Assembly: GCA_027063545.1 (NCBI GenBank) | Contig: JAMORN010000153.1 | Coordinates: forward strand, 1-6,392 | DNA: 6,392 nt | DNA from: JAMORN01 sp027063545 [NCBI: bacterium] | GTDB lineage: Bacteria; JAMORN01 | Direction: 5' to 3' | Shown: positions 577 through 6,160 of the stretch, in pieces | Layout of the letters: each line of letters begins with the position of its first letter | Numbering within the stretch: position 1 is the first letter of the stretch | The notes under the pieces: model-generated | What the model was told of the DNA's origin: nothing | The model's database searches: none | What the model saw: the letters and a program-made list of their open reading frames with translations, nothing else | Program-made: the position numbers and the translations under genes

Positions 577-1596
577 ATGAAAGTGCTAGTTACAGGTGGA
601 GCAGGCTTCATTGGAAGTCATTTTGCACGCCTTGCTTTAAAAAAGAGATATAAGGTAGTAGTTGTAGATAAACTAACTTATGCCGGAGACTTGGAAAGAA
701 TAAAGAATATTTTAGATGATATATCCTTTTATAAATGTGATATTTTAAATAAAGAATTTTTAGAGCATATTTTTGAGAAGGAAAAAGTAAACATAGTAGT
801 TCACTTTGCTGCAGAGAGTCACGTGGATAGAAGTATTTTAGAACCCGGTTTATTTTTAAAAACAAACATCCTTGGCACCCATACTCTTTTAGAGGTAGTA
901 AAAAATAAAGGTATAGATCTATTTATAAATATCTCAACTGACGAAATTTATGGAGATATAAAAAAAGGTGAAAATAGAGCTTTTAAAGAAACGGATCCTT
1001 TAAAGCCTAGTTCTCCTTATTCTTCTAGTAAGGCTTCTCAAGATTTACTTGCACAGAGCTACTATAGAACATATAACTTACCTATAATAACAATTAGACC
1101 ATCAAATAACTATGGACCTTGGCAATATCCAGAAAAATTTATTCCAGTAGTAATTTTAAAGGCTATAAAAGGAGAAAAAATTCCTATATACGGAACTGGA
1201 GAAAATGAAAGAGAGTGGCTTTATGTAGAAGACTGTGCGCAAGGTGTTTTAGCTGCAATCGAAAAGGGAAAAATAGGCAAAGTTTATAACTTAGGAAGTG
1301 GAAAAACATATAAAAATATAGATGTTGCAAAATATATTTTATCTTATTTGGATAAAATATATCCAAGAAAAGACGGGAAAAGCTACCTTGAGCAAATAAC
1401 ATTTGTAAAAGATAGACCTGGACATGATTTTAAATATTTCTTAAATTCTTCTAAGGCTAAAAAGGAATTAAACTGGGAAGCTAAAACTTCTTTTGAAGAG
1501 GGTATTAAGAAGACTATTGATTGGTACTTAAACAATCTAAATTGGCTTGAAAATAAATTACATGAACTTCAAAAATTTTGGGAGGAGGTATATTAG
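577..1596 (+). CDS. rfbB: dTDP-glucose 4,6-dehydratase
   Basis: Cytoplasmic NAD-dependent enzyme of the extended short-chain dehydrogenase family that converts dTDP-glucose to dTDP-4-keto-6-deoxyglucose, the branch point for many deoxysugars. At 339 residues it has normal length. The N-terminal Rossmann motif is GGAGFIG (7-13). The family signature HFAAESHVDRS is at 76-86. The catalytic triad is seen as TDE at 121-123 and YSSSK at 148-152 (Tyr148, Lys152). The substrate-binding stretch RPSNNYGPWQYPEKFIP is at 174-190, and DRPGHD at 279-284. The TDE and the long NNYGPWQYPEK segment separate it from the epimerases GalE and RmlD. The ATG at 577 follows GGAAGGT (564-570) at good spacing. It is the first gene of the sugar operon, and its product is the substrate of the wecE product encoded downstream. 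Equivalent names are rmlB and rffG. Confidence 0.95.
   Translation: MKVLVTGGAGFIGSHFARLALKKRYKVVVVDKLTYAGDLERIKNILDDISFYKCDILNKEFLEHIFEKEKVNIVVHFAAESHVDRSILEPGLFLKTNILGTHTLLEVVKNKGIDLFINISTDEIYGDIKKGENRAFKETDPLKPSSPYSSSKASQDLLAQSYYRTYNLPIITIRPSNNYGPWQYPEKFIPVVILKAIKGEKIPIYGTGENEREWLYVEDCAQGVLAAIEKGKIGKVYNLGSGKTYKNIDVAKYILSYLDKIYPRKDGKSYLEQITFVKDRPGHDFKYFLNSSKAKKELNWEAKTSFEEGIKKTIDWYLNNLNWLENKLHELQKFWEEVY
1581..1589 (+). promoter_or_regulatory. Strong ribosome binding site that fixes the wecF-like start at 1601
   Basis: GGAGGAGGT lies inside the last codons of rfbB, 11 nt before ATG 1601. In-frame ATGs also occur at 1547 and 1562, but they lie upstream of this site within rfbB and would add residues (MKINYMNF...) that look like out-of-frame rfbB coding rather than protein. 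The start at 1601 gives MKFLHIAILDKF, which is the expected beginning of the family. Confidence 0.8.
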
Positions 1597-1600
1597 AAGA

Positions 1601-2620
1601 ATGAAATTTTTACATATAGCTATTTTAGACAAGTTTATACCTCCTTATATAGATTTTATAAAAAATAACTTTGGTATAGATGAACATAAATTTGTCATTA
1701 TTGGAAAGAAAAAATATGAGTATGGTTTAACAGAAAATCATCCGGTAGAGTGGATAGACAAAAAGGTAAAAGTTTTTAATTTGATAAAATATATGTACAC
1801 AGCAAACAAAATCATTCTTCATGGATTATGGAACGAATATATTATTAGATTATTGTGTATGCAACCTTGGCTATTAAAAAAATGTTATTGGGTGGCGTGG
1901 GGAGGAGACTTCTATTTTCCAGAGAAACACTCAAAATTTAAACATTTTGTTATAAGAAATATAAGGTATATTCTTACTTTTTTAAAAGAGGATTTTAAAT
2001 ATATAAAAAAACATTATAAAACTAGAGCTACCATGTATGAATGTCTATGTTATACAAGTAATATTGCAGATGATTGTTTAGAGTTTACAAATAAGAATAA
2101 TAACAATGGAAATAAAAAAATTAAAGTTCTTATAGGGAATTCTGCAACAGAAACAAATAATCATTTTTACATTTTTGAGATATTAAAAAATATTAAAAAT
2201 AAAGAAAAGTATATATTCTATGTTCCTTTATCTTATGGTAACAAAGATTATGCTAAGAAAGTAATAGAGAAAGGGAAACAAATATTAGGAAATTCTTTTG
2301 TACCTTTAGTTAAATATATAGAGTATAAAAATTACTTAAAATTTTTATCTAGTATAGATATAGCTATTTTTGCTCATAATAGACAACAAGCTATGGGAAA
2401 TACTATAAAACTTCTTGCTATGGGTAAAAAGGTTTTTTTAAGAAAAAATACAAGTCAATGGAAATTATTCAAAGAACTTAATATTAAAGTTTACGATATA
2501 GAAAAATTAGATAAAACTTCTCTTATTCCTGAAGATATGTGTGAGAATATAAAAAAAGTAAAAGATTATTTTTCCTATAAAAACTTAAGAAAACAATGGG
2601 AGAAAATTTTTGAAATATAA
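1601..2620 (+). CDS. wecF: dTDP-Fuc4NAc:lipid II Fuc4NAc transferase (WecF-like, GT56)
   Basis: Glycosyltransferase expected to move N-acetyl-4-amino-4,6-dideoxygalactose from dTDP-Fuc4NAc onto an undecaprenyl-diphosphate-linked sugar at the inner face of the cytoplasmic membrane, the step WecF (RffT) performs in enterobacterial common antigen synthesis. Counted from ATG 1601 it has 339 residues, close to the family length. Recognisable blocks are the N-terminal MKFLHIAILDKF, WVAWGGDFYF (97-106), VLIGNSATETNNH (176-188), PLSYG (209-213) and FAHNRQQAMGN (257-267). The last three are the hallmarks of the Glyco_transf_56 family. It starts 4 nt after the rfbB stop. Acceptor identity cannot be read from the sequence; since the rest of the ECA pathway is not visible, the lipid-linked acceptor may differ from that of E. 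coli. Confidence 0.85.
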   Translation: MKFLHIAILDKFIPPYIDFIKNNFGIDEHKFVIIGKKKYEYGLTENHPVEWIDKKVKVFNLIKYMYTANKIILHGLWNEYIIRLLCMQPWLLKKCYWVAWGGDFYFPEKHSKFKHFVIRNIRYILTFLKEDFKYIKKHYKTRATMYECLCYTSNIADDCLEFTNKNNNNGNKKIKVLIGNSATETNNHFYIFEILKNIKNKEKYIFYVPLSYGNKDYAKKVIEKGKQILGNSFVPLVKYIEYKNYLKFLSSIDIAIFAHNRQQAMGNTIKLLAMGKKVFLRKNTSQWKLFKELNIKVYDIEKLDKTSLIPEDMCENIKKVKDYFSYKNLRKQWEKIFEI

Positions 2621-2637: not shown

Positions 2638-3198
2638 ATGCCGTATTATACCAAAGAGGAATTAAAAAAAATGGGGTTTAAATATTTAGGAAAAAATGTA
2701 AAAATAAGTACGAAAGCAAGTATATATTATCCAGAAACTGTAGAGATTGGTGATAATAGTCGAATTGATGATTTTTGTATTATTTCTGGTAAAGTAAAGA
2801 TTGGGCGAAATGTACATATTGCACCTTTTTGTTTAGTTGCGGGTGGAGAGGAAGGAATTATTTTAGATGATTTCTCTGGTTTGGCATATGGTGTAAAAGT
2901 TTTTACTCGTTCAGATGATTATACCGGATTAACAATGACAAACCCTACAATACCTGAAAAATATAAAAAAGTAAAAAAAGCCCCAGTTTATATCGGTAAA
3001 CACTGTATAGTTGGAACAAATTCAATTATTTTTCCTGGCGTCAAGCTAGCTGAGGAAACTGCCGTAGGAGCTATGACTTTAGTAACAAAATCAACAGAAC
3101 CCTGGAGCGTTTACTTTGGTATTCCAGCCAAAAAAATAAAAAACAGAAAAAAAGATTTACTTAATCTGGAAAAAAAAATACCTAGAGGAAGAAGATAA
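2638..3198 (+). CDS. Left-handed beta-helix (hexapeptide repeat) acetyltransferase, probably sugar N-acetylation
   Basis: Acyl-CoA-dependent transferase of the WbbJ/maltose-acetyltransferase-like fold, 186 residues. After an N-terminal helix (YYTKEELKKMGF) come hexapeptide-type turns (VKISTKASI, VEIGDNSRI, VKIGRNVHI), a loop around residues 85-115, further turns (VYIGKHCIVGTNSIIFPGVKL, 117-137) and the usual closing GIPAKKIKNR (161-170). His60 in NVHIAPFCLVAGG is a plausible catalytic base. It lies between wecF and wecE, so I infer that it acetylates the 4-amino group of dTDP-4-amino-4,6-dideoxygalactose, the job WecD, a GNAT enzyme, does in E. coli. O-acetylation of the finished glycan is the alternative. 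The start at 2638 has only a weak binding site (CAAGGT, 2626-2631). Its stop overlaps the wecE start as TAATG. Confidence 0.85.
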   Translation: MPYYTKEELKKMGFKYLGKNVKISTKASIYYPETVEIGDNSRIDDFCIISGKVKIGRNVHIAPFCLVAGGEEGIILDDFSGLAYGVKVFTRSDDYTGLTMTNPTIPEKYKKVKKAPVYIGKHCIVGTNSIIFPGVKLAEETAVGAMTLVTKSTEPWSVYFGIPAKKIKNRKKDLLNLEKKIPRGRR

Positions 3199-4337
3199 TG
3201 TATAAAATTCCTTTTAATAAACCTTGCTATACTGGTAATGAAGATAAATACGTACTACAGGCTATGAGAAGTTCTCATATATCAGGAAATGGTCCATTTG
3301 GACAAAAATGTGAAAAATGGTTTGAGGAAAAACTAGATTGTAAAAGAGCTTTACTTACACCTTCCTGTACACACGCTCTTGAAATGGCCGCTATGCTTAT
3401 TAATATTGCACCTGGAGACGAAGTTATAATGCCCTCTTTTACTTTTGTATCCACAGCAAATGCTTTTGTGTTAAGAGGAGCAAAGGTAATATTTGTAGAT
3501 ATCAGACCAGATACTATGAACATAGATGAAAATTTGATAGAACAGGCAATTACGGAAAAAACTAAAGCGATTGTTGTTGTGCATTATGCAGGTGTTTCTT
3601 GTAATATGGATAAAATAATGGATATAGCAGAAAAATATAACTTATTTGTAATTGAAGATGCAGCTCAAGGAATGATGAGTTTTTATAAAGATAAACCTCT
3701 AGGAACAATTGGTCACCTTGGAACTTACAGTTTCCATGAAACAAAAAATTATACAAGTGCTGGAGAAGGAGGGCTTTTGATTATAAATGATGAAAAGTTT
3801 GTAGAAAGAGCAGAAATTATAAGAGAAAAAGGAACAAACAGAAGCCAGTTTTTTAAAGGTTTAGTAGATAAATATACATGGGTTGATATTGGAAGTAGTT
3901 ACCTAATGAATGATGTAAGTGCAGCTTACTTGTGGGGTCAACTTGAAAAAGCAGAAGAAATTTTGGAATATAGACTCAACGCCTGGAATTTTTATTATGA
4001 AAACTTAAAAAAATTAGAAAATAATGGATATCTGGAGTTACCTGTAATTCCAAAAAACTGTAAGCACAATGCTCATATTTTTTATATTAAATTGAAAAAT
4101 AAAAATATTAGGGACAAATTATTAAATTTTTTAAAGCAAAATGGAATCTTAGCCACATTTCATTATATTCCATTGCATATTTCCCCAGCTGGAAGGAAAT
4201 ATGGAGAATTTAGAGGTAAGGACGTATATACTACTAAGGAAAGTAGTAGATTAATAAGATTGCCTTTGTTTTATGGTATAAAAAAAGAAGAACAGTTATT
4301 TGTTGTTAGAAAAATAGAAGAATTCTTTAATATTTAA
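3198..4337 (+). CDS. wecE: dTDP-4-amino-4,6-dideoxygalactose transaminase
   Basis: PLP-dependent aminotransferase of the DegT/DnrJ/EryC1/StrS family. It transfers an amino group, from glutamate in characterised members, to C4 of dTDP-4-keto-6-deoxyglucose, giving dTDP-Fuc4N. The 379 residues match WecE/RffA length. Blocks shared with the E. coli protein as I remember it include TPSCTHALEMAA (54-65), GDEVIMPSFTFVSTANAFVL (73-92), RPDTMNIDE (103-111), HYAGV (129-133), EDAAQG (153-158, Asp154 for the pyridine nitrogen), SFHETKNYT (178-186, Lys183 the Schiff-base lysine), AEIIREKGTNRSQFF and FHYIPLH. This density of matches favours WecE over ArnB, VioA or Fdt-type relatives. The ATG overlaps the preceding stop by one base, so the two genes are translationally coupled; AGAGGAAG (3184-3191) is the binding site. 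It uses the product of rfbB at the head of the operon. Confidence 0.93.
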   Translation: MYKIPFNKPCYTGNEDKYVLQAMRSSHISGNGPFGQKCEKWFEEKLDCKRALLTPSCTHALEMAAMLINIAPGDEVIMPSFTFVSTANAFVLRGAKVIFVDIRPDTMNIDENLIEQAITEKTKAIVVVHYAGVSCNMDKIMDIAEKYNLFVIEDAAQGMMSFYKDKPLGTIGHLGTYSFHETKNYTSAGEGGLLIINDEKFVERAEIIREKGTNRSQFFKGLVDKYTWVDIGSSYLMNDVSAAYLWGQLEKAEEILEYRLNAWNFYYENLKKLENNGYLELPVIPKNCKHNAHIFYIKLKNKNIRDKLLNFLKQNGILATFHYIPLHISPAGRKYGEFRGKDVYTTKESSRLIRLPLFYGIKKEEQLFVVRKIEEFFNI

Positions 4338-4367
4338 TTTACTTTTTAAGAGGAGGTTTAATAAAAA

Positions 4368-4808
4368 ATGGATGTTGCTCATAGAAGAGAAAATGCTATA
4401 AGAAGACTATTTGCTGAAGGTTTAAAATGTTGTCCAGATTTTCTTCAAAATTTTAACGGGAATGTTTTGGGTGTATATGGTGATCCAGCTGGACTGGCGA
4501 AAGCTGATATTTTAGATTGTAAAAATGAAAAGGATATAGAGAAATGTTTAAAACTTAAATATTTGGTTGGATATACCGTATTAGTTTTATTAAATGTTAT
4601 TGAACATTGTCAAAAGGATTTATCTAAAATTTTAAAGAAAGAGTTAAAGAATTTAGAAGATGATTTACTCTTTAAACTAAGAATATTAGATAATATGAAA
4701 TGTCCGCAGAATTGTGAAGATATTTTAAAAATTTTTGATGAACTAATAAATAACTATATATTAGATGAAAAAAATAATTTTATTTTGGAACAATGTTGCA
4801 ATAAATAA
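4368..4808 (+). CDS. Hypothetical cysteine-rich protein, 146 aa
   Basis: I do not recognise this protein. It is surely a gene: AGGAGGT (4351-4357) lies 10 nt before the ATG, the frame is open for 146 codons on the operon strand, and it follows wecE by 30 bp. The N-terminus is basic and helical (RRENAIRRLF). The middle reads GNVLGVYGDPAGLAKADI (31-48) and then a hydrophobic stretch LVGYTVLVLLNVIEH (66-80), which is short for a membrane span. The C-terminal half looks like charged helices (81-135). It has nine cysteines (21, 22, 51, 60, 81, 112, 116, 143, 144), including two CC pairs and a CPQNC group. No signal peptide is evident, so a cytoplasmic metal- or cluster-binding role is conceivable but unproven. 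It pairs with the next gene, also small and Cys-rich. Confidence 0.75.
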   Translation: MDVAHRRENAIRRLFAEGLKCCPDFLQNFNGNVLGVYGDPAGLAKADILDCKNEKDIEKCLKLKYLVGYTVLVLLNVIEHCQKDLSKILKKELKNLEDDLLFKLRILDNMKCPQNCEDILKIFDELINNYILDEKNNFILEQCCNK

Positions 4809-4836
4809 AAATTAAATTTTAATTCTGGAGGTTAAA

Positions 4837-5220
4837 ATGAATAAAAATTCAAGACTAATGTTGAGAAAATTATTAGGCCCAAAAAAAGAAGAAAACTTAA
4901 TTCCAGTATTGGATCATCGTAAAACTCAGAGATTTTGTTTTGTGCAAAATAGGGATACTGGTACTGTTCATATAGCTTGTTGTGTAAAAGAGAATGATTC
5001 ATTTGAATGTTATAAAGAAAATATTGTTAATCTTAACTGCAAAAGTATGATAAACAAGTTAAAGTTAGAATATTTCAATGTTAGTCCATATTTAAAAAAA
5101 GATATAAGTAAAAGGTGTTTTACATTAGATGAGATAAGAAAAATAGCTGCAATTTTAGCTAATCTAGGTATAAACATATGTGCCAAATGTATATCCATGT
5201 TTTATACAAATAACCTATGA
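4837..5220 (+). CDS. Hypothetical cysteine-rich protein, 127 aa
   Basis: I do not recognise this family. The ATG follows TGGAGGT (4826-4832) by 4 nt and starts 28 bp after the previous stop, so the two are probably co-transcribed. The N-terminus is basic (MNKNSRLMLRKLLGPKK). A likely beta-rich middle follows, with RFCFVQNRDTGTVHIACCV (32-50), and the C-terminal part looks helical (LDEIRKIAAILANLGI, 97-112), followed by CAKC (115-118). It has eight cysteines (34, 48, 49, 58, 68, 94, 115, 118). There is no signal peptide or clear membrane segment. A small metal-binding or regulatory protein is possible; a two-gene toxin-antitoxin arrangement was considered, but nothing in the sequence favours it. 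The role relative to the sugar genes is unknown. Confidence 0.75.
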   Translation: MNKNSRLMLRKLLGPKKEENLIPVLDHRKTQRFCFVQNRDTGTVHIACCVKENDSFECYKENIVNLNCKSMINKLKLEYFNVSPYLKKDISKRCFTLDEIRKIAAILANLGINICAKCISMFYTNNL

Positions 5221-5467
5221 TGGCAAGAAACATTGGAAATTAAACAAAAAACTACATCTTCAATAAAATGGAGTGTATTATTAAGTATTTTTATTAGCTA
5301 GTTGTAAGGTTGTTTATACGAGGATATAATAAGTTACATATCATAAAAACATAATGAACATTTTTAGAAATAAACATAACTTCTTAATACAGAAATTACA
5401 TTCAAAAGATTAAATATTAACCAGTACCTTGAGTTAATAAAAATATTTTTTATAGGGAGAATATGAT
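5221..5467. other. 247-bp AT-rich intergenic region
   Basis: No gene or RNA is recognisable here. The region carries the promoter at 5302-5330 and a leader of about 130 nt before the methyltransferase. AAAAATATTTTT (5439-5450) is a perfect palindrome, but its arms are only A/T, so it is weak as a hairpin. I see no GC-rich stem followed by a T-run, hence no clear terminator for the upstream operon. Confidence 0.6.
5302..5330 (+). promoter_or_regulatory. Sigma-70-type promoter for the methyltransferase gene
   Basis: TTGTAA (5302-5307, four of six matches) and a perfect TATAAT (5325-5330) are separated by 17 bp, the ideal spacing. Transcription would begin near 5337 and give an untranslated leader of roughly 130 nt before ATG 5468. 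This suggests that the methyltransferase is expressed separately from the sugar operon. Confidence 0.6.
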
Positions 5468-6160
5468 ATGAAACCAAGTAAATATCATAAAAATAAAAGT
5501 TTCCATAATTGGCTTGTATATAGAACCTTAGATAGGCATTTAATTAAATATTCAAAATATATTAAGGGAATCTTGGTAGATTTGGGATGTGGGGAAAAAC
5601 CGTATAAAGAATTTTTTTTAAAATATTGCAATAAGTACATAGGGGTAGACTGGAGTAATTCTTTGCATAACGTTAAACCTGATGTTATTTCAGACTTAAA
5701 TCAAAAAATAAATTTACCAAGTGAGTATGCAGATACGGCTGTGGCTATCTCTGTTATGGAGCATTTATATAATCCACAAAAATTTTTAAATGAAGTTTAT
5801 AGAATATTGAAAAAAGATTCTTACTTTATTTTACAGATTCCCTGGCAGTGGTGGGTACATGAGGCTCCTTATGATTATTTTAGATATACTCCTTATGCTC
5901 TTAAATATTTATTAGAAAATGCTGGATTTGAAATTATAGAAATATCTCCACAAGGTGGATTATTTAGTACTTTAGCATTGAAATTAAATTATTTTACTCT
6001 TAGACTTATAAAAGGTCCAAAATTTTTAAAACTTTTGATAAAGCTATTTTTAATACCTATGTGGAACTTGTCTCAGTATCTAGCTATATTATTGGATAAG
6101 TTAGATAGACATTGGATGTTAGAGGCACCAGGTTATTTTGTTTTAGCCAGAAAGAAATGA
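5468..6160 (+). CDS. Class I SAM-dependent methyltransferase (Methyltransf_11-like)
   Basis: Transfers a methyl group from S-adenosylmethionine; the acceptor is not evident. In its 230 residues, motif I is VDLGCGEKPY (37-46), the acidic residue that would hold the SAM ribose is Asp61 in YIGVDWS (57-63), motif IV is AVAISVMEHL (91-100), and ILKKDSYFILQIP (113-125) is the post-motif segment. HEAPYDYFRYTPYALKYLLENAGFE (131-155) is typical of methyltransferases in surface-polysaccharide clusters. The C-terminal third (about 166-210) is hydrophobic and aromatic, suggesting membrane association or a lipid-linked substrate. The ATG at 5468 is preceded by GGGAGA (5455-5460); the ATG at 5463 is out of frame. 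It stands alone behind its own promoter and ends 9 bp before the right IS. Methylation of the glycan built by the upstream genes is an inference from position. Confidence 0.88.
   Translation: MKPSKYHKNKSFHNWLVYRTLDRHLIKYSKYIKGILVDLGCGEKPYKEFFLKYCNKYIGVDWSNSLHNVKPDVISDLNQKINLPSEYADTAVAISVMEHLYNPQKFLNEVYRILKKDSYFILQIPWQWWVHEAPYDYFRYTPYALKYLLENAGFEIIEISPQGGLFSTLALKLNYFTLRLIKGPKFLKLLIKLFLIPMWNLSQYLAILLDKLDRHWMLEAPGYFVLARKK

Follow-up and report, generated by a model that had tools for sequence, protein, structure and literature searches.

Cassettes for Fuc4NAc-containing glycans of the enterobacterial common antigen (ECA) type are recognisable from their RmlB, WecE, and WecF proteins. Cysteine-rich proteins are known from other settings: the Csp copper storage proteins, as part of PMC7558416 describes them, are helical and rich in cysteine, with Csp3 being cytosolic. 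Genes that belong to no family are common in uncultured taxa according to part of PMC10849945, which describes novel gene families of the FESNov type that are exclusive to uncultivated taxa, span multiple species, and are under purifying selection; the word "cysteine" has no occurrence in the main text of that paper. The locus considered here touches on all three, as it places two adjacent, cysteine-dense genes that match no family behind a Fuc4NAc-type gene set.

The stretch of DNA analysed (the window; 6,392 nucleotides) is apparently the whole of contig C153 in a 1.57-Mb draft genome of 355 contigs that is 83% complete. In searches restricted to the host family, order, or phylum, this genome (G000) was the sole entry in each. 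LpxK and the type 9 secretion system (T9SS)-type response regulator PorX (L022:2516-4072, plus strand; 539.9 bits against a cut-off of 300) are both encoded in the genome, each scoring above its curated cut-off. The host is therefore taken to be Gram-negative in type, and it probably lies near the FCB group. A search for a 16S gene in it found none. Cysteine-rich spore-coat proteins were dropped as candidates for the pair, given that the genome has LpxK and is of the LPS type.

Features of the window, and of the second locus that carries the gene 2 module. Bit scores are followed by the cut-off of the model.
Feature	Position	Strand	Remarks
rmlB, dTDP-glucose 4,6-dehydratase (RmlB)	577..1596	+	TIGR01181, 407.9 bits (365.1)
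WecF-like (GT56) N-acetylfucosaminyltransferase	1601..2620	+	PF07429, 76.2 bits (25)
Hexapeptide acyltransferase	2638..3198	+	PF00132, 54.5 bits (27)
WecE-type dTDP-4-amino-4,6-dideoxy sugar transaminase	3198..4337	+	TIGR02379, 663.5 bits (434.85)
Shine-Dalgarno-like AGGAGG of gene 1	4351..4356	+	Read from sequence
Gene 1, cysteine-rich ORF	4368..4808	+	ATG start, 146 aa, 9 Cys
Shine-Dalgarno-like GGAGG of gene 2	4827..4831	+	Read from sequence
Gene 2, cysteine-rich ORF	4837..5220	+	ATG start, 127 aa, 8 Cys
Gene 2 C-terminal module, residues 100-123	5134..5205	+	IRKIAAILANLGINICAKCISMFY; common to the C253 frame
Class I SAM methyltransferase	5468..6160	+	PF08241, 45.1 bits (21.2)
C253 short frame	L086 (G000 contig C253) 1521-1772	-	Carries the gene 2 helix-CAxC module

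The four genes upstream of the pair make up the gene set for a glycan containing a dTDP-4-amino-4,6-dideoxy sugar of the Fuc4NAc type, and their product would be a surface-type glycan. RmlB and WecE exceed the curated cut-offs for this cassette; the WecF-like protein exceeds that of Pfam but reaches only 352.3 bits against the best NCBIfam model, NF002756, which has a curated cut-off of 457. The hexapeptide acyltransferase is a possible substitute for WecD. The listed wecF-like frame starts at a TTG at 1547, within rmlB; the ATG just past the rmlB stop, adopted in the table, is the likelier start. No Rfam family or tRNA gene was found in the window. WecF-like neighbourhoods of 3.4–4 kb were inspected at eight loci from seven other genomes, and in four of these loci, L073, L074, L077, and L078, short cysteine-rich frames of 60–96 aa were flagged. 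Two of these, the overlapping L073 and L078 of genome G364, contain a WecF-like match interrupted by 8 to 12 stop codons, preceded by an apparent fragment of a dTDP-glucose dehydratase and followed by an apparent fragment of an aminotransferase, and look like a cassette of the same kind that is decaying. The WecF-like protein was also searched against viral contigs, with nothing credible found there.

Gene 1 begins 30 nt after wecE, and gene 2 begins 28 nt after gene 1. The 20 nt before each start read AAGAGGAGGTTTAATAAAAA for gene 1 and TTTTAATTCTGGAGGTTAAA for gene 2, and thus the claim of the sequence-only reading that two consecutive ORFs of 146 and 127 residues follow good ribosome-binding sites is borne out; of the 518 ATG-started ORFs sampled from the host, 181 have GGAGG, AGGAG, or GAGGT in the 20 nt before the start. 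In same-length regions generated from a first-order Markov model, an ORF of at least 127 aa arose in 2 of 2000 and one of at least 100 aa in 35 of 2000. The coding signal in the frame of each gene beats that of all five other frames. Ranked by synonymous codons among 181 small host ORFs, gene 1 is at the 47th percentile and gene 2 at the 8th, with the five other named genes of the window lying between the 2nd and the 40th. Once amino-acid composition is counted, the rank of gene 2 drops below the 2nd percentile (of 200 ORFs), which may be due in part to its many cysteine codons. Both genes are confirmed as real, and their codon usage fits that of resident genes. No terminator-like site was found in 4200-5600, and the pair is probably co-transcribed. 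Promoter-like sites are not enriched in the same interval (seven, against a mean of 10.7 in shuffles); one of them, with 10 of 12 matches, lies at 5302-5330 in the 247-nt gap (5221-5467) between gene 2 and the methyltransferase gene.

The most striking property of the two proteins is their cysteine content. Gene 1 has cysteines at 21, 22, 51, 60, 81, 112, 116, 143, and 144, forming CC pairs at 21-22 and 143-144 and a CPQNC motif at 112-116; those of gene 2 lie at 34, 48, 49, 58, 68, 94, 115, and 118, with a CC pair at 48-49 and CAKC at 115-118 in a C-terminal module. The nine and eight cysteines and the motifs first read from the sequence are thus all present. They make up 6.2% of gene 1 and 6.3% of gene 2, around 13 times the frequency in the sampled genome, where cysteine accounts for 0.49% of residues (497 ORFs of at least 100 aa on 94 of the host's own contigs, about 600 kb). 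At the host rate, the binomial chance of such counts is 6e-8 for gene 1 and 3e-7 for gene 2. None of the 136 sampled host ORFs of 100–200 aa reaches 4% cysteine, and the five other named window genes have 0.6%–1.7%; the density noted in the sequence-only reading is extraordinary by the standard of this genome. Across the 94 contigs, only six ORFs of at least 60 aa have four or more cysteines at above 3.5%, and on inspection of their sequences, these have a zinc- or cluster-binding look.

Neither protein has a hydrophobic segment at its N terminus by Kyte-Doolittle hydropathy, which agrees with the earlier statement that signal peptides are not evident, and neither has a clear transmembrane helix (best 19-residue means of 1.66 for gene 1 and 1.69 for gene 2). 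Gene 2 contains a single CxxC, and gene 1 has none, possessing only C-x3-C; the two CxxC/CxC knuckles of a classical zinc ribbon are thus absent from both proteins. Histidine is sparse in gene 1, occurring only at positions 5 and 80.

Against Pfam and NCBIfam, both proteins stay below every curated cut-off, and the only Pfam hit of gene 1, the Death effector domain PF01335, was rejected at 17.8 bits against a cut-off of 35.9. The PADLOC anti-phage defence models gave no match up to E 1. Against the PDB by sequence, the best E values were 9.2 for gene 1, 0.36 for gene 2, and 0.2 for the gene 2 profile A1. In tblastn against 50,697 phage and 72,556 plasmid records, neither gene had a match up to E 1, and gene 1 had none in phages up to E 10 either; viral contigs likewise gave no match to the pair. 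Scans of genome contigs, which need an exact 8-residue stretch and so detect close relatives only, gave no credible match. The only PHROG hit of gene 1, phrog_5384 (residues 33-129; 21.6 bits, E 4e-4), looks like one of helical composition, because elsewhere the profile matches stretches of long frames: it was found in three of 192 genomes at E ≤0.01 (about two expected) within frames of 492–1159 aa, G000 not being among the three.

Genome searches covered 192 and 392 genomes for gene 1—at least two were common to both sets, giving at most 581 besides G000—and 386 genomes (385 besides G000) for gene 2 and profile A1. All matches outside the host were judged to be chance: for gene 1, 11 of 191 other genomes at E ≤0.1 (about 19 expected) and one of the 392 at E 0.006, the latter a GIY-YIG-like-looking protein sharing no cysteine; for gene 2, 14 of 385 at E ≤0.05 (about 19 expected); and for profile A1, three of 385 at E ≤0.01 (about four expected). 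The two genes do not appear homologous to each other either, since 46 of 500 shuffles reach their alignment score. No relative of gene 1 emerged from any search, and both genes are probably lineage-restricted. A literature search returned nothing on such a pair, which is not proof of its absence from print. The proposals that the two genes belong to no recognisable family and are likely undescribed have thus held up, and the pair appears new to all libraries searched.

One relationship was found within the host genome itself. Residues 98-124 of gene 2, comprising a predicted helix followed by CAxC...FY, match a short frame on another contig (C253). The genome search gave this match an E value of 0.0028, and two of the 385 other genomes matched gene 2 equally well (E 0.0023 and 0.0027), matches that were taken for chance. 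Acceptance of the relationship therefore derives not from that value but from a local search through some 650 kb of host genome (E 2e-4), a reversed-sequence control with no hit up to E 10, shuffling, and genomic place. Over the module, 11 of 24 residues are identical and 18 of 24 positive, a score that none of 2000 shuffles reached; the C253 frame ends in ...VRELATTLKNLGVDVCANCLREFYKY and gene 2 in ...IRKIAAILANLGINICAKCISMFYTNNL. The frame is flanked by a Wzy-like gene—a label assigned on inspection, Pfam giving no hit over cut-off—and a gene for a GT4 glycosyltransferase. Farther up lies a GT2 gene; by gene content, C253 is a second glycan locus of the host.

The C253 frame is, however, not a plain second copy of gene 2. 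Read upstream to the nearest ATG, which has a possible ribosome-binding site, it spans 84 codons and includes one in-frame TAA, and the longer match obtained with profile A1 spans two in-frame stops (the E value of 5e-38 in that search arises by construction, the frame being a row of A1). The part of the frame before the module resembles gene 2 no better than chance, with 1760 of 2000 shuffles reaching its score. A frameshift-tolerant alignment of gene 2 with the region reached a score of 91, where the best of 60 shuffles gave 79, the module being included in that score. Either a decayed gene or some other short gene with a common module could thus account for the frame. As a tblastn query up to E 10, the C253 reading matched 15 phage and 32 plasmid records, with best E values of 0.7 and 0.2, respectively. 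An H-C-C-C zinc site across a gene 2 hairpin and the CAxC, drawn from a MAFFT alignment, was dropped; His45 and Cys58 are not claimed, as the pre-module part alone aligns no better than chance. Conservation of the cysteines, which the sequence-only reading had singled out as a check, could be tested only at C115 and C118 of gene 2, and there the CAxC is kept; conservation support thus extends to two of the eight cysteines of gene 2 and none of the nine of gene 1, and this limits the metal-binding proposal. No relative of gene 1 was found on the 3.8-kb C253 contig or the other sampled host contigs. This speaks mildly against obligate pairing of the two genes and suggests that the gene 2 module is able to function by itself or with different partners.

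Structure prediction with AlphaFold2 on single sequences gave an all-helical model of gene 1, the best of five reaching a pLDDT of 73.9 and a pTM of 0.70, with pLDDT falling to 43.3 across the set. Its main helices are modelled at 3-21, 23-28, 54-82, 87-108, 116-131, and 134-144, which places Cys 21/22, 51, 81, 112/116, and 143/144 in loops or at the ends of helices; C60, the seventh residue of its helix, is the exception. Were the helices arranged up and down, topology would bring eight of the nine cysteines (all but C81) to one end of the bundle. Gene 2 was modelled poorly (pLDDT 51.5), with strands, a helix, and a final helix beginning near CAKC, and a model of this quality cannot show a site. 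In fold searches of the PDB, neither model had a match at E 0.001 (best values 0.96 and 0.54). For gene 1, the VIA Z was at most 8.1 against the PDB, which is ordinary for helical bundles; a hemerythrin-like bundle among its structural neighbours (VIA Z 6.5) falls within that common range. Hemerythrin-like bundles use multiple histidine ligands for diiron, and this assignment was rejected given the two histidines of gene 1.

The reading tentatively preferred here is that the pair is cytosolic, binds zinc or another metal, and serves the glycan cassette as an accessory or regulatory complex. The sequence-only reading had already suggested metal or cluster binding, or a joint complex, and these parts are inferences here as well. 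Both proteins would be made together from the glycan operon, and the cysteine clusters of each would hold metal. Zinc is the first guess, in a role that would most likely be structural, since a CxxC where a helix begins is a common feature of structural zinc sites. Gene 1 would contribute a helical bundle, with most of its cysteines at one end should the helices run up and down, the helix-plus-CAxC module of gene 2 would provide part of the metal site, and the two would form a small complex for the dTDP-4-amino-sugar (Fuc4NAc-type) cassette. Dense thiols, pairing, operon-like spacing, and recurrence of the module favour this over unrelated cargo, though only mildly. Such cargo—defence genes, toxin-antitoxin genes, or mobile passengers of this lineage that settled in variable glycan loci and have no glycan role—is a doubtful but serious alternative, as it would suit a small two-gene unit that lacks relatives and a possibly decayed C253 copy sitting alone, passenger-like, in another glycan locus. 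The resident codon usage of both genes tells against it, as do the empty searches of PADLOC, phages and plasmids (tblastn up to E 1), and viral contigs, and the helical-composition look of the one PHROG hit. Should the ORFs instead be non-functional or decaying, the low codon score of gene 2 and the possibly broken C253 frame would be accounted for; this is highly improbable, however, for two successive long ORFs with good ribosome-binding sites and in-frame coding signals, when even one ORF of the length of gene 2 is so rare in Markov sequence.

A different use of the thiols is unlikely: the cysteines could form disulfides within or between molecules, whether inside an oxidising cytosol or following export by a route that uses no classical signal peptide, for instance as a glycan-linked surface or matrix protein. 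CC pairs and evenly spread cysteines, as found here, are usual in disulfide-rich helical proteins, the cassette would make a surface-type glycan, and LpxK and PorX represent LPS-type and T9SS-type genes in the genome. The N termini of both proteins are not signal-like, however, cysteine avoidance throughout the genome gives no hint that cytosolic disulfides are widely used, and the shared CAxC is also compatible with metal. Metal storage or buffering of the Csp or metallothionein kind, with the position beside glycan genes being due to chance, would fit a signal-less, cysteine-rich protein modelled as all-helical, as cytosolic copper storage proteins are. It is very unlikely nonetheless: no such Pfam or NCBIfam match occurs up to E 1, the modelled cysteines of gene 1 lie mostly at helix ends and in loops rather than along the helices as in Csp cores, and two different proteins with nine and eight cysteines would offer small capacity. 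The metal-binding accessory pair can also be put in a bolder form that is distinctly unlikely: a new, cysteine-dense, two-protein cytosolic metal complex for glycan assembly, specific to an unstudied phylum, in which a helical-bundle protein that has most of its cysteines at one end and a helix-CAxC partner share one metal or cluster site and the module is used, now or once, in at least two glycan loci.

What sets the pair apart is its contrast with a cysteine-poor genome: cysteine at above 6% in two adjacent genes, where the genome has some 0.5%, must be paying for something. If the proposed metal complex is real and linked to the synthesis of sugar chains, it would be an accessory factor without precedent, to our knowledge, in such cassettes, in a phylum with one genome; if the two genes are passengers, they would show how variable glycan loci gather lineage-specific genes. 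In either case, the small size of the pair should make expression and testing easy.

Comparison with known systems gives a partial likeness in each case. Four genes upstream of the pair resemble an ECA-type Fuc4NAc cassette with RmlB, WecE, and WecF, whereas the cysteine-rich pair matches none of the Pfam or NCBIfam models for proteins of such a cassette. Gene 2 recalls small zinc-ribbon and CxxC proteins in that its C-terminal CAxC follows a helix, but it has only one CxxC and no nameable other two ligands. With the Csp proteins, as they appear in part of PMC7558416, gene 1 has in common a helical fold (by model), richness in cysteine, and the lack of a signal; it departs from them in having no Pfam hit to such a family, as does gene 2, in having modelled cysteines that sit mainly at the ends of helices instead of filling the core of the bundle, and in being co-encoded with a second, different cysteine-rich protein. 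Finally, unlike the multi-species FESNov families described in part of PMC10849945, the pair is known from one genome only, but it shares with them the combination of familyless genes, an uncultured lineage, and an operon-like context that hints at function.
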